DNA from: Advenella sp. S44 | GTDB taxonomy: Bacteria > Pseudomonadota > Gammaproteobacteria > Burkholderiales > Burkholderiaceae_B | NCBI RefSeq assembly: GCF_002810445.1 | Contig: NZ_NEXS01000001.1 | Coordinates: 620,001 to 684,000, forward strand | Reading direction: 5' to 3' | Length of the DNA stretch: 64,000 bases | In this document: piece after piece, positions 42,851 through 64,000 of the stretch | Layout: each line of letters begins with the position of its first letter | How positions within the stretch are numbered: the stretch's first letter is position 1 | Position numbers and translations under genes: made by a program | Notes under the pieces: model-generated | Databases searched by the model: none | What the model saw: only the letters and a program-made list of their open reading frames with translations | What the model was told of the DNA's origin: nothing

Positions 42851-43014
42851 GGGCGCCGATTTTACCATGCCGTTGTCATTTGAGGCAAAGCGCAATTCAT
42901 CGGTTGTACCGGCTCAAATAAAAGCATATCATTTGATCTATATCATTGACTAATCAACCAAAGCATGGTCTGAGCGATGATCTTATCCGAATTCTTCCCA
43001 ACAAGAGAAAAGCA
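42851..43014 (+). promoter_or_regulatory. Promoter region of cytochrome/PQQ dehydrogenase operon with FNR/Anr-like box
   Basis: TTGAT-CTAT-ATCAT at 42933-42946 matches the FNR/Anr consensus (TTGAT-N4-ATCAA) at 9 of 10 conserved bases, centred about 75 bp before the cytochrome ATG. A start site near 42981 would put the box near -41.5, the usual activating position. Start site is not known. Confidence 0.55.
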
Positions 43015-43806
43015 ATGAAAACTAAACTGACACACACTGCTGCTGCAGTCGCGTGTGCGGCTGCCTTCGGCTTTGCTGGCCTGGCAAATGCAAATGCAAA
43101 CACGGCAGCGGCAGAATCACAAGCCGCGGACACGACAGCCGGGGCGACTTCACCGACACTGATCGCCAAAGGGGCCAGCGACACAATGACGCCGTTTCTT
43201 GTGGATGCCGATGGGTTTACTTTGTATACGCTGAGCGAAGAAGGTAAAGACAAATGTGATGAAGCCTGTATGAAACACTGGACGCCAGTGGTTTCTGAGG
43301 GTCGTCCGCTAGGCCGCGACATTTTGCCCGGCCTGCTGGATACCGAGAAAAACGACAAGGGTGCGTCTCAGGTCAATTACGGCGGGCTCGCCCTGTATCG
43401 TTTTGACGGCGACAAGAAACCGGGCGATATGAACGGGCAGGGATTTTCAGACGTGGGCGTAATGGTTACCGTGCTGGGCACGGTCGAAAAGCCTGAAGCG
43501 GCCGGTGAGAACGTTGAAGCGACGCCAGAACTGATGGCCGCCGGCGCAAAAGTCTATAGCGGTACGTGCGCCGCATGCCACGGTGCGGAAGGTCAGGGCG
43601 CGTTCGGCACGAAGCTGGCCGGATTCGACCGGCTGGCCAACGCACCTGCGCTGCTCAGTACGATCATCCATGGCCTAAACAGTATGCCGGCTCTGGGCGG
43701 TCAGTTCAATGATGAACAGGTTGCTGCCGTTGCCACTTACGTTCGCAACAGCTGGGGTAACAGCTATGGCGGTGTTTCAGCGGAGCAGGCCAAAGCGGCA
43801 CGCTGA
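43015..43806 (+). CDS. Periplasmic COG4315-like domain fused to cytochrome c
   Basis: A 263-residue exported protein with a signal peptide (about 25 residues, ending LANAN). Residues around 50-155 resemble COG4315-type domains with the Yx(FWY)xxD pattern: FTLYTLSEEGKDKC, CMKHWTPV, and LYRFDGDKKPGDMNGQG. A C-terminal class I cytochrome c follows, with haem motif CAACH and a likely distal methionine in NSMPALGG. It would accept electrons in the periplasm, presumably from the adjacent PQQ dehydrogenase 79 bp downstream. The fusion is unusual. ATG 43015 is chosen as the start of the signal peptide. Confidence 0.85.
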   Translation: MKTKLTHTAAAVACAAAFGFAGLANANANTAAAESQAADTTAGATSPTLIAKGASDTMTPFLVDADGFTLYTLSEEGKDKCDEACMKHWTPVVSEGRPLGRDILPGLLDTEKNDKGASQVNYGGLALYRFDGDKKPGDMNGQGFSDVGVMVTVLGTVEKPEAAGENVEATPELMAAGAKVYSGTCAACHGAEGQGAFGTKLAGFDRLANAPALLSTIIHGLNSMPALGGQFNDEQVAAVATYVRNSWGNSYGGVSAEQAKAAR

Positions 43807-43885
43807 ACGATAGGTTTGATCCAATGTCGCGATGTCTCTGTCATGAACCGCGACCCGTAACGAATATTGAAGAATAGGACACAAA

Positions 43886-45676
43886 ATGAAAATCCATAGG
43901 CTTTTGGCTGTCTCTGCCGCTGTGATGTTTGCCTGCGCGGCTCAGGCACAAGTGAATATCGAAGATTACAAACCCATTTCCAATGAGCAGATTCTGAAAC
44001 CGGCAGACGGGGACTGGCCGAGCTGGCGCCGTACGATTGATAACCAGGGTTATAGCCCGCTTGACCAGGTCAATAAAAAGAACGTGAAGCAACTGGATCT
44101 GGCCTGGGCATGGTCAATGCCTGTCGGCGGCTTGCAGGAAACGGCTCCGCTAGTGCATGACGGCATCATGTTTCTCGGCATGAATCGTAGCCATGTGCAG
44201 GCACTGGATGCCACAACGGGCGATCTGATCTGGGAATACACCCAGCCGCTGCCCAAATTTACGGGTGGCTATCATGATGCCCAGGCCAATCGTCAGCGCA
44301 ACTCATTGGCACTATACGAAGACAAGGTCTACCTGACCACGCCGGACGCCAAACTGGTCGCACTGGAAGCCAAAACCGGCAAGAAGCTGTGGGAAGTCCA
44401 GGTTAACGAATGGGAAAAAGGCTACAGCTTTACGGCTGGTCCAATGGTCGTTGACGGCAAAGTCTTTACCGGAACCTCCGGTTGCAGTATTACCGGCACG
44501 GCAGGTGGTTGCTATATTACGGCCCATGATGCCGAAACAGGCAAAGAACTGTGGCGTCTGAACACCATTGGCGATCCTGCTGTCGACGACAGTTGGGGGG
44601 GCCTGGCCAAGGAAAACCGCTGGGGCGGCTCGCCCTGGATCACAGGCTCTTACGATCCAAAACGCAAAATGCTGTTCTGGGGTGTAGGTATGCCGATTCC
44701 ATATCCATCCATTCTGCGAGGCAGTGGCGACGGCGATGCACTTTACACCAGCTCCACGCTGGCCATCGACGCGGAAACCGGCAAAGTCAAATGGCATTAT
44801 CAGCATATGCCCAATGACGACTGGGATCTGGACAGTCCGTTTGAGCGCGTGCTTGTAGAAAGCCAGATCGCGCCATCCAAGGATGAAGTGACCTACATGA
44901 GCAAGGATGTGGAATCAGGCAAGAAATATGATGTGATTGCGTCTGTTCCCGGCAAGTACGGCACCGCCTTTGTGCTGGATCGCGATACCGGCAAGCTGCT
45001 GTGGGCTCGCGACACGGTATATCAGAACGTGATCAAGGGATTCACCGAAGACGGCAAGGTCATTACCAATACCGATTTGAAAGCCAAATCCATCGACGAA
45101 ACGGTCAAGGTCTGCGGCGGGCGCGACCTGGGTAAATTGTGGATGACAGCGGCCTACAGCCCGCTGACCAACGCCCTGTACGTTCCGGTCAGCTCTTCCT
45201 GCAAGGAGCTCACACCCAAGCCGATAGAGCTGCGTACCGGCGAATCTGTCGGCGCTCAGGCTTCAGGTGCTGTTTCGTTTGCGCCTGGTGAAGATAGCGT
45301 GGGCCGCGTGTATGCGGTTGATGTGAAAACCGGCAAGTTCCTGTGGGTCAAAAAGCAGAAACCGATTTTCAGTTCTGGTGTATTGACTACCGGTGGCGGT
45401 CTGCTCTTTACCGGCGACAGTATGCGTGAGTTTGCGGCTTATGATCAGAACAGCGGGGATAAGCTGTGGTCAATCCGCCTGAATACCTCGATCGGCGGCT
45501 TCCCCATGACCTACAGCGTCGATGGCAAGCAGTACATTGCCGTTGTAACCGGCCCGAACGCTCAGACACCGCCAGCGGCGATTCTGAGTCCAGAGCTGAA
45601 AAACGTTGTTGATTCCGGTCATTCGGTATTTGTGTTTGCACTTGACGATGTAAAGGCCGAGAACAGCAAGAAATAA
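43886..45676 (+). CDS. PQQ-dependent alcohol dehydrogenase (quinoprotein)
   Basis: A 596-residue periplasmic quinoprotein with a signal peptide (about 21 residues, ending AQAQ) and repeated beta-propeller tryptophan-docking motifs (for example DATTGDLIWEY, EAKTGKKLWE, DAETGKELWR, DRDTGKLLWAR). No haem motif is present, so it needs an external cytochrome, supplied by the gene upstream. Type I quinoproteins usually have a calcium-ligand Asn in GTGNPxPW; here the equivalent is GVGMPIPYP, with Met for Asn. The vicinal Cys pair of classic methanol/ethanol enzymes is not seen. Substrate is unknown; alcohol is the family default. Confidence 0.88.
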   Translation: MKIHRLLAVSAAVMFACAAQAQVNIEDYKPISNEQILKPADGDWPSWRRTIDNQGYSPLDQVNKKNVKQLDLAWAWSMPVGGLQETAPLVHDGIMFLGMNRSHVQALDATTGDLIWEYTQPLPKFTGGYHDAQANRQRNSLALYEDKVYLTTPDAKLVALEAKTGKKLWEVQVNEWEKGYSFTAGPMVVDGKVFTGTSGCSITGTAGGCYITAHDAETGKELWRLNTIGDPAVDDSWGGLAKENRWGGSPWITGSYDPKRKMLFWGVGMPIPYPSILRGSGDGDALYTSSTLAIDAETGKVKWHYQHMPNDDWDLDSPFERVLVESQIAPSKDEVTYMSKDVESGKKYDVIASVPGKYGTAFVLDRDTGKLLWARDTVYQNVIKGFTEDGKVITNTDLKAKSIDETVKVCGGRDLGKLWMTAAYSPLTNALYVPVSSSCKELTPKPIELRTGESVGAQASGAVSFAPGEDSVGRVYAVDVKTGKFLWVKKQKPIFSSGVLTTGGGLLFTGDSMREFAAYDQNSGDKLWSIRLNTSIGGFPMTYSVDGKQYIAVVTGPNAQTPPAAILSPELKNVVDSGHSVFVFALDDVKAENSKK

Positions 45677-59199: not shown

Positions 59200-61680
59200 C
59201 TATTGCTCCTTGCGTGCATCATCCGGCAACGCATAGGCAATAATGTAGTCGCCCCGGTCAGGAGACTGCCTGGCTCCGCCTGCGTTAATCAGAATATACT
59301 GCTTGCCGGTCTTTGGAGACACGTAAGACATGGGCCCGGACTGGCTCCCGACGGGCAGACGGGATTTCCAGATTTCCTTGCCGGTGGCCGAATCATAGGC
59401 GCGCAGGTAAAAGTCTTGCGTACCCGCAAAAAATAGCAATCCGGCCTGGGTCGCCAGCGATGGGCCCAGTGTGGGCATGCCCACAGGAATAGGCATGCCC
59501 ATGCGGATGCCCAGTGGCCCGGTGTCCTGCACTGTCCCGACGGGCACCTGCCAAACGATCTTGCGGGTTTTCAGATCAATGGCGGTCATGGTGCCGAAAG
59601 GCGGCTTCTGGCAGGGAACCCCCAACTGGGACAGGAAGCGTTCACGCATGGCGCCGTAGGGCGTCCCATCCTGGGGAACAACACCCATCTCGATACCGCT
59701 GGCACCAGCTGCTACTTGGTCGCGCGGGATCATGTAATTGGCCAGACCCAGCCGCATGTCATTGACAAACATATAGTTGGTGGTCGGATCCACCGAGACG
59801 CCGCCCCAGTTCATGCCGCCCAGAGAACCCGGAAACTGCAGTGCACGATCTTCGCCGGGTGGCGTGTATACGCCCTCGTGACGCATGCCCTTGAACTGGA
59901 TCCGGCACAGCAATTGATCAAACGCCGTGGCGCCCCACATATCGGATTCTTTTAAGGTCTGGTTACCGATGGAGGGCATGCCCACCGAGAAGGGCTGGGT
60001 TGCGGAATAACGCTCGCCTTCGAGATTGCCTTGGGGCACCGGTTTTTCCTGAACTTGCGCCAATGGCTGGCCGCTTACGCGGTCCAGCATGAAGATTTCG
60101 CCCTGTTTGGTCACTTGCACCAGCGCAAAGTGCGTACCGCCCTTGCCGTCGGGAATGTCATAAAGCAGCGGTTGTGCCGGCAGGTCGAAATCCCATAAGT
60201 CGTGGTGGGTGGTCTGGAAATGCCAGCGGACCTTGCCGGTTTTGACATCGAGCGCGACAATCGAAGAACTGTATTTATCATCCAGTTCGGTGCGCTGGCC
60301 CGCGTAAAAATCCGGTGTGGCGTTGCCGGTAGGCAAATAGGCCAGGCCCAACTTGGGATCATAGGACATGGCGGACCACACGTTCGGTGTGCCACGGGTA
60401 TAGGTCTGTCCTTCCGGTGGTGCGCCGGTGATTTCAGGATTGCCCGGGTCCCAGGCCCATTCGAGGTTGCCCGAAATGACGTTGAAGGCACGCACCACGC
60501 CCGGTGGCTCGTCCACGGCAAAGTTGTCGGCCACGCGTCCGCCTACAATTACCAGGTTGCCAGCGACCAGTGGTGGAGACGTTTGTTGATAGTAGCCCTC
60601 TTTGACTTCGCCCATGCCCACCTTCAGGTCCACCGTGCCCATATTGCCAAATTCCGTGCAGGGTTGGCCATTATCGGCATTGATTGCAATCAGACGAGCA
60701 TCGGTGGTGGGCAAAAACAGACGTCGCGCGCAGCTGACCGCGTTGGCGGGCTGGCTATCCGGCGTCGTGCCGTCCGGACCAGTGCCATCCGGTGCAGCGG
60801 TCCCCTGATCCTTGGCCAGTTCCGCGCTTTGTGCGCTGGCCTGCGCGATCGTGTCAACGCTGGCGGTAGCGTCGAAATAACCCAGGCCACGGCAACGCTG
60901 CCAATTAGGCGCTGTGGCTTTTGAATCGTAGCGCCATTTTTCCTTGCCGGTATCGACATCCAGTGCCAGCACCTTGCTGTAGGGGGTACACACATACAGG
61001 GTATCGCCGATCTGCAACGGTGTATTCTGGTCTTCGGCGCCCGATCCGGTACTTTGCGGGATATCGCCCGTGTGGGCTGTCCATGCCACTTCCAGCTTGC
61101 CGATATTGTTCTTGTTGATCTGATCTGTGGCGACAAAACGTGTACCACTCGTGGTGTTGCCCCAGTGCTCCCAGTTTGTGGACTTGTCATCGGTATTGAC
61201 TTTGGTGACCGTGGCAACGGTATCTGCCTGGATAACCGATTTGGGAAAGAAGAAGAGGGCGAAGGTCGCGACAATGCCGATGGTCAACGCAATGCTGGCC
61301 CATCGCGTAACACGGCAGGGCGATTTGCCCTGCGCGCGGCGAAGTGTCGGGACGACCAGTGTGACCAGCAAGGCCAGCACGGCGAAGGCAAAGATACGCG
61401 CCACCAGTGGCCAGAACTCCCAGCCGGCCTCCCACACCGCCCAGACGATGGTGGCAATAAACGCGATCGCATAAAGCCAGGCGCCGACAAGATTGCGTTT
61501 CATAATCAGATAGCCTGACAGCAGCAACGCCAATCCCATGAGGATGTAATACACGCTGCCGCCCAGCACTGCAAGCCAGGCACCCGCGCCGGCCATAAAG
61601 ACGCCACACAGAATTATGAGTACACCCACCAGTGTCAGGCCGATACCGGCAATGCCGGATACGGGTTTGCGATCATCCAT
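59200..61680 (-). CDS. gcd: Membrane-bound PQQ-dependent glucose/quinate-type dehydrogenase
   Basis: An 826-residue quinoprotein with an N-terminal membrane domain (about residues 10-150, five hydrophobic segments, for example GIGLTLVGVLIILCGVFMAG) and a C-terminal periplasmic PQQ beta-propeller with many GxxxW docking motifs. This plan is that of Gcd-type enzymes of the glucose/quinate/shikimate family, which oxidise sugars or cyclic acids and reduce ubiquinone. ATG 61680 has GAGGGG upstream. The gene is 167 bp downstream of the PqqU-like TonB receptor on the same strand. Quinate or shikimate dehydrogenase activity is a real alternative. Confidence 0.9.
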   Translation of the reverse strand: MDDRKPVSGIAGIGLTLVGVLIILCGVFMAGAGAWLAVLGGSVYYILMGLALLLSGYLIMKRNLVGAWLYAIAFIATIVWAVWEAGWEFWPLVARIFAFAVLALLVTLVVPTLRRAQGKSPCRVTRWASIALTIGIVATFALFFFPKSVIQADTVATVTKVNTDDKSTNWEHWGNTTSGTRFVATDQINKNNIGKLEVAWTAHTGDIPQSTGSGAEDQNTPLQIGDTLYVCTPYSKVLALDVDTGKEKWRYDSKATAPNWQRCRGLGYFDATASVDTIAQASAQSAELAKDQGTAAPDGTGPDGTTPDSQPANAVSCARRLFLPTTDARLIAINADNGQPCTEFGNMGTVDLKVGMGEVKEGYYQQTSPPLVAGNLVIVGGRVADNFAVDEPPGVVRAFNVISGNLEWAWDPGNPEITGAPPEGQTYTRGTPNVWSAMSYDPKLGLAYLPTGNATPDFYAGQRTELDDKYSSSIVALDVKTGKVRWHFQTTHHDLWDFDLPAQPLLYDIPDGKGGTHFALVQVTKQGEIFMLDRVSGQPLAQVQEKPVPQGNLEGERYSATQPFSVGMPSIGNQTLKESDMWGATAFDQLLCRIQFKGMRHEGVYTPPGEDRALQFPGSLGGMNWGGVSVDPTTNYMFVNDMRLGLANYMIPRDQVAAGASGIEMGVVPQDGTPYGAMRERFLSQLGVPCQKPPFGTMTAIDLKTRKIVWQVPVGTVQDTGPLGIRMGMPIPVGMPTLGPSLATQAGLLFFAGTQDFYLRAYDSATGKEIWKSRLPVGSQSGPMSYVSPKTGKQYILINAGGARQSPDRGDYIIAYALPDDARKEQ

Positions 61681-61847
61681 TGTATTCCCCTCTTGAAACA
61701 GACAACTTAACAACAATTATTCTGGGGCCGCGAGGTTGCCGGTCGCGTCATGTAACGCAAGTCCGTGACCAACGCCGCAGTTGGCGCGCATGACCCGACC
61801 GGCAGTGCGATGCCGTTTGCAGCGGGCGCCGATAAGTCATTCTAACG

Positions 61848-64000
61848 CTAAAATTGATAACTGACACTCAGACCTGCGGTCCAGTTTCTGCCGGGCGCAG
61901 GCTCGTAATAACGGTTGTTTGCATCGTTGATGATGACAGATCCGGCATAACGTGCTTTGAAAACGTTATCGAGTCGCGCGAAAGCATTCAGTGTCCAGTG
62001 ATCCTGTTTCCAGGTGTAGCCCGTGTGCAGGCCGGTTACGACAGCAGACGCCGTAGACTCGCTGTTTTGATCGTTCACGTACACTTTGCCCAGGTAGTCG
62101 ACATCAATGCCGCCGTTCCATCCCTGTTCCGGTTGCCACGCCAGCGACGCCGATGCCGTGTTGCGGGCAATACCCGGAATCAGGTTGCCTGCGCCAATTT
62201 CCGGGTTGCTGTCCGAGCAGGGTCCCGAGCAGAAGTCGTCGCGATAACGTGCGTGCAGGTAGGTATAAGACAGGCGCGTGTACAGATCGCGGTAAAGCTG
62301 AGCATTCCAGGCCAGTTCGACCCCGTCGCGCAAGGTGCGTCCCGCATTCTGATAGGTGGTTCGTCCGCCCGAGGCGCCGGCGTTGACAATCTCATCCTTG
62401 GTATAAGTGCGAAAAACGGCGGCAGTCAGTTCTCCGTTGCCGACGTTAGCCTTCAGCCCTGCCTCCAGCGTGGTATTGATTGACGGCTTCAGGCCAAAGT
62501 TAAGGCCAGGCTCGTCATCGCTGCGGTAGGATAATTCGTTGAAAGTGGGCGTCTCAAAGCCGCGGCCTGCTGTGACATAGAATGACAGGTCTGGCGTTGC
62601 CTGAAAATTCAACGCAACTACAGGCAGCAATTTGCTGTAGTTGGCGGTTCCACTATCGTCTGCGTTGCCTGGCGTGATATAGCGGTCAGACGACTTAAAG
62701 TGGACGTTGCTGTAGCGCAGGCCGGCATCCAGTGTCCATTGCTCGGCAAAGTTCCACGATGCCTGTATGTAGGGATCCAGGTTCCAGACATTGTTGATTT
62801 CGTTGCGACGCAGATTGCCTTGAACGCCAAGCTGATCGCCAATGAAGTTTTCGTAGCCCTTGCGCGCTTCGCGCATCGTATCCCAGGCCACGCCTGCCAC
62901 CAGGGTGAGAGGCCTGTCGGCCAGGGAAACACGGGACGTCAGTCGGATGTCCGCGCCCCCGTATTGCCTTTTAAGCCAGATCACGCCGCCTGAATGCGAT
63001 GGCGCCCGTTGAGGGGCGATCGGAATGGACAGAAACTGTCGGGTTTCACGCTGGCCGTAATAGCCCATGACGCGCAGATCGGTCCGGTCCGATAGCGCCT
63101 GCTCATAGACCAGCCCGCCCTGAGTCTGCTTGGTGGTTTTGCGTACGTTATAGGTTTTGGCGTTGGGAGACGAAGAGCGCGGATCGTTATCGAATTCTTC
63201 ACGTGTCAGCCCCTGCGGATCCTGCGCCGATACATCGACATGATTGAGCAGCAGGCTCAGGTGGCCGGTGTCGCCCACGCGCATGCCGAGTTTGGCGTTG
63301 ACCTGGTTTTTCTCGGCCCTGCTGTGCTCTCGATAGCCGTCTGTGCTGAAGTGATTGGTGCTAAGCACATAGTCAATGGCGCCGGGTCCGTCGCCGCGCG
63401 ACCCTGCGGCTTTCATGCCATAACGCTGTTGCCCGTCGCTGCCGGCGGCAAAAGACGGGGTCAGGGTGAGCGGCCCGTCACCGGTTTCGGTCTCGGTCAG
63501 CAGCACACCGCCTGACGAGTTGCCATAGAGCGTGGAAAATGGGCCTCGCAACACCTCGGCCGATGCAATGGAGGACAGGTCAATATTTGAGGTCTGTCCC
63601 TGTCCATCAGGCATGGTGGCCGGAATGCCATCTACATAAAGGCGAATGCCGCGTACGCCAAATGCCGAGCGAGCGCCGAAGCCGCGAATACCCACTTGCA
63701 AGTCCTGCGCATAGTTTTGCCTGTTGCGCACCGTGAGCCCCGGTATCCCGCGCAAGCCTTCGGAAAGATTGACCTGCAACTGGTTCGAGCGGATTTGCGC
63801 GCCATCAATGACGCTGACCGAAGCCGGGATTTCGCTTGTGGGGCGGTCCATACGGGTGCTGACAGCCATAATGGGTGACAACTGGGTGACGGGCGCGTCA
63901 GCGGACGACTCCGGTTCAGCGGTGACCGCTTCTGCGGGCGCGGTTACCGGCTGGGCCACGGCGGCGCATGTGCCGGCGAACAGCGAAAAAAGACATCCGG
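61848..64000 (-). CDS. pqqU: TonB-dependent receptor, PqqU (YncD)-like, 5' truncated
   Basis: More than 700 residues of a TonB-dependent outer-membrane receptor; the start lies beyond the window, since in-frame signal-peptide-like residues (LFAGTCAAVAQP) precede position 63959. The plug has NRQNYAQDL, GIRGFGARSAFGVRGIRLYVDG and MPDGQGQTSN. The barrel ends YYEPAPGRNWTAGLSVSYQF. These stretches, and internal ones such as GRGFETPTFNELSY, GGRTTYQNAG and IPGIARN, are nearly the same as those I recall from E. coli YncD, now known as PqqU, the TonB-dependent importer of PQQ. Context beside a PQQ enzyme supports this strongly. Confidence 0.82.
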   Translation of the reverse strand, partial: GCLFSLFAGTCAAVAQPVTAPAEAVTAEPESSADAPVTQLSPIMAVSTRMDRPTSEIPASVSVIDGAQIRSNQLQVNLSEGLRGIPGLTVRNRQNYAQDLQVGIRGFGARSAFGVRGIRLYVDGIPATMPDGQGQTSNIDLSSIASAEVLRGPFSTLYGNSSGGVLLTETETGDGPLTLTPSFAAGSDGQQRYGMKAAGSRGDGPGAIDYVLSTNHFSTDGYREHSRAEKNQVNAKLGMRVGDTGHLSLLLNHVDVSAQDPQGLTREEFDNDPRSSSPNAKTYNVRKTTKQTQGGLVYEQALSDRTDLRVMGYYGQRETRQFLSIPIAPQRAPSHSGGVIWLKRQYGGADIRLTSRVSLADRPLTLVAGVAWDTMREARKGYENFIGDQLGVQGNLRRNEINNVWNLDPYIQASWNFAEQWTLDAGLRYSNVHFKSSDRYITPGNADDSGTANYSKLLPVVALNFQATPDLSFYVTAGRGFETPTFNELSYRSDDEPGLNFGLKPSINTTLEAGLKANVGNGELTAAVFRTYTKDEIVNAGASGGRTTYQNAGRTLRDGVELAWNAQLYRDLYTRLSYTYLHARYRDDFCSGPCSDSNPEIGAGNLIPGIARNTASASLAWQPEQGWNGGIDVDYLGKVYVNDQNSESTASAVVTGLHTGYTWKQDHWTLNAFARLDNVFKARYAGSVIINDANNRYYEPAPGRNWTAGLSVSYQF

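Follow-up and report, generated by a model that had tools for sequence, protein, structure and literature searches.

Is the PQQ receptor gene of Advenella sp. S44 next to a PQQ-dependent dehydrogenase gene for a functional reason, and does this organism depend on PQQ taken up from outside? The two genes lie at the end of the window, that is, the whole stretch of 64,000 nucleotides analyzed here (C16:620001-684000; the genome comprises 4.3 Mb in 17 contigs), with pqqU upstream and the dehydrogenase gene downstream on the minus strand (Table 1). The original prediction, made from the letters of the window, described a same-strand pair separated by 167 bp, and this layout is borne out if the dehydrogenase is read from the ATG at 61680. 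The first start codon of this frame is a TTG at 61716; the ATG is preceded by a ribosome-binding-site-like A/G-rich run, largely kept in four other Advenella genomes, which places the start there and sets the gap at 167 bp. The pqqU gene is slightly truncated by the window, and its likely ATG (MSSPPLKPAVLAGC...) opens an N-terminus that looks signal-peptide-like by eye. Beyond the window, an IclR-type regulator gene is located divergently upstream of pqqU.

Table 1. Coordinates of the gene pair and of other features mentioned in the text
Feature	Sequence	Coordinates	Strand	Remarks
pqqU (PqqU/YncD-family TonB-dependent outer-membrane receptor)	window	61848..64000	-	stop 61848; frame open through window end; likely ATG L003:4035, ~34 bases beyond window end
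Membrane-bound PQQ-dependent dehydrogenase (glucose/quinate/shikimate family, TIGR03074)	window	59200..61680	-	stop 59200; profile match, tree
pqqU-dehydrogenase intergenic stretch, 167 bp	window	61681..61847	-	ORF ends
Gene with c-type cytochrome motif, then alcohol-type PQQ dehydrogenase	window	42946-45676		
Alcohol-type PQQ dehydrogenase	window	43886-45676	+	596 aa
Stretch searched for terminator- and promoter-like sites	L003	1-5400		5.4 kb
Weak promoter-like match	L003	2558-2529	pqqU strand	inside pqqU
Weak promoter-like match	L003	1868-1840	pqqU strand	pqqU end
Methanol/carbon-fixation island	L032	8549-12454		C11 ~108-130 kb, with the next two rows
Methanol/carbon-fixation island	L032	13747-19691		
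Methanol/carbon-fixation island	L002	9-9799		
TetR-type gene, Bordetella	L190	11719-12401		overlaps listed pqqU frame by 4 bp
yncE divergent beside pqqU, E. coli	L028	2964-6369		
pqqU in pieces, Advenella G097	L174	5489-7621		two frames
pqqU split, G226 (other genus)	L187	5898-8014		two frames
pqqC near pqqU, Pantoea	L096	1092-1769		~7-8 kb from pqqU
pqqC near pqqU, Pantoea	L107	126-812		~7-8 kb from pqqU

The assignment of the receptor to the YncD type, already made in the original prediction, is confirmed by profile, structure and identity comparisons. Against the NCBIfam PqqU model NF041535 it scores 904.5 bits (E 4e-272), below the equivalog cut-off of 1200 bits; no genome in the family sample of 268 reaches this value, which presumably suits enteric sequences. 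The best PDB matches, 6v81 (E 4e-225) and 9c4o (2e-224), are both YncD/PqqU, while the next solved receptor follows at 2e-13. Over the full length, the protein is 51-52% identical to E. coli PqqU, and no second strong PqqU match was obtained in the genome. Among the named genomes, the nearest copies are those of Advenella kashmirensis W13003 (86%) and A. incenata (88%). The gene context differs from that of E. coli, where pqqU adjoins the divergent yncE instead of a PQQ dehydrogenase gene. A divergent yncE, encoding a PQQ-like-domain protein, is found beside pqqU in many other Enterobacteriaceae loci as well.

The PQQ-contact residues of E. coli PqqU are largely retained. Of the 12 contacts counted in PMC12124388, the 11 named ones were compared, with position 477 used for the asparagine that is printed there as both N477 and N447. 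Nine are identical in the receptor (Gln84, Gln121, Lys274, Arg304, Gln308, Arg365, Asn477, Tyr481, and Arg536); Tyr99 is replaced by Phe and Gln310 by Leu. The signature proposed for PqqU, Tyr99 (or Phe, Trp), Arg304, and Arg365 (PMC12124388), is present as Phe99, Arg304, and Arg365, and seven of the eight contacts outside it are identical, the exception being Gln310, whose change to Ala left growth wild-type-like in E. coli (PMC12124388). We extended the comparison to 19 further pqqU copies from gene pairs, two broken copies being excluded. Gln84, Gln121, Lys274, Arg304, Gln308, Arg365, Tyr481, and Arg536 are invariant in all 19, whereas position 99 is Phe or Tyr, position 310 is Gln or Leu, and position 477 deviates in two copies. 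Judged by identity and contact residues, the receptor is PqqU.

The dehydrogenase matches TIGR03074 over nearly the entire model (1070.7 bits, cut-off 832.65, profile positions 2-783 of 783). The earlier label "gcd-type" thus stands at the level of the family and fails at the level of orthology. The window enzyme is 39-40% identical to E. coli Gcd, whereas true Gcd orthologues from the same bacterial family reach 58-60%. In a tree of 67 family members, built by a quick method and with some long branches, it falls into a clade of 16 with a support of 100, separate from the Gcd orthologues. Further, the enzyme and 34 other copies of its clade have no histidine aligned with His262 or His775 of Gcd; one position holds Arg in one alignment and Trp in another, and the other position is a gap. 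Trp404, Asp466, Lys493, and Asp730 are retained in the enzyme and its clade (the Gcd numbering and the part played by its two histidines are taken as given here). Given the separate clade, the low identity, and the missing histidines, "Gcd" is the wrong name for this protein on sequence grounds. In all, 35 of the 105 dehydrogenase copies in the family sample, counted among the best candidates per genome, were assigned to it, copies outside the tree being placed by their best BLAST match (at least 49% to a clade representative).

An operon of the two genes is plausible, and their co-transcription likely, since they share a strand, the gap is short, and no terminator-like site was found on the pqqU strand of the 5.4 kb searched. 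In five Advenella genomes the gap measures 167, 164, 45, 162, and 173 bp; some 30 bases before the dehydrogenase ATG are largely conserved, and the middle of the gap is variable and absent in one genome. Two weak promoter-like matches occur on the pqqU strand, one inside pqqU and one at its end, and both strands of the 5.4 kb contain seven such matches, with 3.1 expected. Tighter same-strand pairs are seen in G213 and G125, with 6 bp and 29 bp between the listed frames, respectively.

The original prediction reported no PQQ synthesis genes in the window. They are elsewhere in the genome, on contig C11, where PqqB, PqqC, PqqD, and PqqE score above the NCBIfam cut-offs and a pqqA frame of 24 residues, recognized by eye, is located just upstream; according to genome-wide profile searches, the single copies of PqqC and PqqD are both on this contig. 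The E. coli importer thus differs in its setting, as E. coli lacks pqq synthesis genes (PMC12124388), whereas the host of the window has them. A complete pqq operon combined with receptor-independent dehydrogenase activity had been named as evidence against the original prediction, and its first half, pqqABCDE, is what the genome contains.

With the dehydrogenase next to pqqU, the PQQ dehydrogenase genes of this genome number five, the others being two further membrane-type and two alcohol-type ones. One alcohol-type gene is found in the window, and the gene before it carries a c-type cytochrome motif. The alcohol-type enzyme has a W-D-L-D motif, in which the presumed catalytic Asp is followed two positions later by another Asp, a feature that we take to mark lanthanide-type PQQ enzymes. 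The pqqABCDE genes of C11 belong to an apparent methanol/carbon-fixation island with mox-like genes, RbcL-, CbbX-, and phosphoribulokinase-like frames (several of these names were given by eye), transketolase, aldolase, and glutathione-dependent formaldehyde dehydrogenase. An MxaF-like methanol dehydrogenase gene with a W-D-Y-A motif and an MxaI-like small subunit gene, both recognized by eye, lie about 14 kb from the pqq genes. Advenella kashmirensis is presumably the present name of Tetrathiobacter kashmirensis. Calvin-cycle, PQQ-synthesis, and methanol dehydrogenase genes were described in Tetrathiobacter kashmirensis (PMC3669393).

The linkage of pqqU with a membrane PQQ dehydrogenase gene recurs in the bacterial family. 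With matches at E 1e-120 or better, and with only the best candidates of each genome scored (up to four for PqqU and three for the dehydrogenase), PqqU was found in 117 of the 268 family genomes sampled, the dehydrogenase in 69, and both in 54. The two genes lie within 0.8 kb of each other in 17 of these 54 genomes; if genes were placed at random in genomes of 4.9 Mb, 0.12 such cases would be expected. The counts of dehydrogenase copies and of adjacencies may be too low, as only best candidates were scored and fragmented assemblies may hide adjacency. The pairing is therefore not due to chance, and, given its recurrence, the gene pair is very probably functionally meaningful. In the remaining 37 genomes with both genes, pqqU and the dehydrogenase are not adjacent. 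Nor is the pair adjacent in any of the six further genomes with both genes found class-wide among the best two or three candidates per genome; at two candidates per genome, this search missed one of the three membrane enzymes of the window genome itself.

The 17 adjacent pairs come from eight genera and show four arrangements. The enzyme is downstream of pqqU on the same strand in six Advenella genomes and G125, and upstream on the same strand in four Bordetella genomes, G213, and G258; the genes are convergent in G143, G145, and G226, and divergent in G233. The genera of these genomes were deduced from contigs that also occur among the named loci. Three enzyme clades take part: that of the window enzyme (14 pairs), Gcd (G143 and G145), and the clade of the C8 paralogue (G213). 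In the tree, 14 of the 16 window-clade members are located beside pqqU, a proportion that we rejected as biased because adjacent cases had been fetched on purpose. In a fuller set, window-clade copies of pqqU-bearing genomes are adjacent in 14 of 29 cases, while for the other clades the figure is three of 57 (Fisher p 6e-6, without correction for relatedness); counted by genus, the values are 6/13 and 2/15. Six more window-clade copies occur in genomes without a PqqU match.

Among 80 PqqU loci of named genomes, some of them short, nine have a membrane dehydrogenase gene in the fetched flank, and four Alcaligenaceae cases overlap the family sample. A Gcd orthologue is directly downstream of pqqU on the same strand in four of the nine, all from Enterobacterales: Erwinia typographi, Winslowiella iniecta, Serratia ureilytica, and Rahnella perminowiae (L088, L092, L104, and L112). 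These loci share order and strand with the window but differ in the enzyme, which is 71-73% identical to E. coli Gcd. In Bordetella (L179-L182, L190), a dehydrogenase-tetR-pqqU cluster on one strand contains an enzyme of the window clade (52-54% identity), in reversed order and with a TetR-type gene in between (two loci, L179 and L181, were examined for the latter); no PqqC match was obtained in the genomes with this cluster. In L190, the TetR-type gene and the listed pqqU frame have 4 bp in common. This regulator is a candidate for a switch responding to PQQ or to the substrate of the enzyme.

A comparison of 20-kb stretches showed that the surroundings of the pair vary from genus to genus, the dehydrogenase and pqqU being the common element. 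TctC-type binding proteins, of which these bacteria have many, are shared as well, as are a CoA transferase and transporter genes; no clue to the substrate was found among the shared neighbors in these stretches. In G226 and G233, a gene beside pqqU resembles, on visual inspection, that of a pseudouridine synthase. A second receptor, adjoining another dehydrogenase clade (L198 and L200), was considered as a PQQ importer and rejected, since its best match is ZnuD, at a score below the ZnuD cut-off; a third frame put to this test (L201) gave no match.

The linkage does not track the loss of PQQ synthesis, as PqqC is present in seven of the 17 adjacent-pair genomes of the family sample and missing from ten. 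Of the nine paired loci in the named set, PqqC scores above the cut-off in six genomes, including all four enteric pqqU-gcd genomes, and does not in three, one of them a metagenome assembly. Among ten genomes of the window genus, pqqU, the enzyme, and pqqC occur together in six, one of which has a broken pqqU, and all three are missing from the other four at the thresholds used. The broken pqqU (G097) is in pieces in two frames; pqqC is kept, and the C-terminus of the dehydrogenase deviates from its relatives. Thus, if the break is not a sequencing error, a producer can lose the importer; such an error may be present both here and in G226, where pqqU is split in two frames and pqqC is present.

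Other combinations of importer, enzyme, and synthesis genes were also observed. Of 41 PqqU-bearing genomes that appear to be Achromobacter, 38 have no match to a membrane PQQ dehydrogenase, and none has a PqqC match among the matches listed; this group seems to possess the importer without an evident enzyme of the membrane dehydrogenase family. In two Pantoea genomes, pqqC is located about 7-8 kb from pqqU. Synteny of pqqU with biosynthesis genes was described in four Burkholderiales genomes (PMC12124388).

These data bear differently on the possible reasons for the pairing. The original prediction suggested that the organism may depend partly or wholly on scavenged PQQ, the operon existing because the cofactor cannot be made. 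The window by itself, lacking pqqC and pqqD, would agree with this, and the ten paired genomes without PqqC indicate that such dependence may fit relatives like Allopusillimonas soli; with pqqA, B, C, D, and E together on C11, close to the MxaF-like methanol dehydrogenase gene, it is almost certainly wrong for Advenella sp. S44 and, as far as genes can tell, refuted there. It is also very improbable that the receptor has drifted to another ligand, for instance a siderophore, and retains its neighborhood as inherited baggage. The score below the equivalog cut-off and the changes Tyr99Phe and Gln310Leu could be read in this way, but the distance between the match to E. coli PqqU and that to the next solved receptor, the nine identical contacts of 11 tested, and the occurrence of the linkage in different orders all argue for PQQ. 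The last of these agrees with the claim of the original prediction that the pairing is independent support for the ligand, since the association with a PQQ enzyme recurs across genera.

Common descent is a further possibility. The genes could be neighbors by inheritance in a few lineages, with neither a functional tie nor a common transcript; adjacency indeed runs within genera (all six Advenella genomes with both genes, four Bordetella), involves mostly one enzyme clade, and is missing from the majority of the genomes with both genes. Nevertheless, four arrangements and three enzyme clades would require several independent joinings, the starred branches of the tree, in which adjacent rows are over-sampled, force at least seven changes of the adjacency label (gains and losses together), and in the 20-kb stretches each genus has its own surroundings of the pair, with only a few gene families shared. 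We therefore regard descent alone as improbable.

The explanation that we favor, and consider highly likely, is that PqqU serves the recapture and scavenging of PQQ, to the benefit of apo-dehydrogenases in the periplasm and chiefly of the adjoining one, in a host that is predicted to make PQQ as well. It builds on the observed gene identities, contact residues, presence of pqqABCDE, and recurrence of the linkage. Powered by TonB, PqqU would carry external PQQ, or PQQ leaked from the cell, across the outer membrane, and thus raise the amount of periplasmic PQQ available to apo-dehydrogenases, foremost to the neighboring membrane-bound quinoprotein, whose gene is probably co-transcribed with pqqU. 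The periplasmic substrate of this quinoprotein would be a sugar, sugar acid, or polyol, and the electrons would presumably go to ubiquinone. A sugar-oxidizing role fits with, and is not proved by, the uptake of sugars only after periplasmic conversion to sugar acids in Advenella mimigardefordensis (Meinert 2017, cited in PMC5812351). As PQQ synthesis genes are present in the host, import would not be an absolute need and would serve recapture and opportunistic scavenging. Weighing against this explanation are the receptor score below the NF041535 cut-off, the 37 of 54 genomes with non-adjacent genes, the absence of adjacency in the six class-wide genomes, and the broken pqqU of G097.

In P. 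aeruginosa, PA2289 neighbors PA2290, which we take to be gcd. PA2289 is OptQ, a TonB receptor (PMC5971595). Recapture by PQQ producers was already proposed in PMC12124388. That survey examined the synteny of pqqU with biosynthesis genes, and the part of it consulted here reports none with a dehydrogenase gene; no report of the pqqU-dehydrogenase linkage was found by title or abstract in the literature searched. What is apparently new here, and of moderate novelty, is this recurrent linkage and the enzyme clade lacking His262 and His775.

One could further speculate that this clade differs in the way it binds or obtains PQQ and receives the cofactor by its own recapture route across the outer membrane, and that this is why it was joined to pqqU more than once, among producers as well as non-producers. 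We consider this rather unlikely; if true, PqqU would be more than a general scavenger, namely the partner of a single class of enzymes. It is difficult to predict the substrates of TonB receptors from sequence, and linkage to a PQQ enzyme in several gene orders provides independent support, in this case for PQQ as the cargo of PqqU homologues outside enteric bacteria. As producers keep the importer beside a PQQ enzyme, the recapture idea becomes testable in Advenella.
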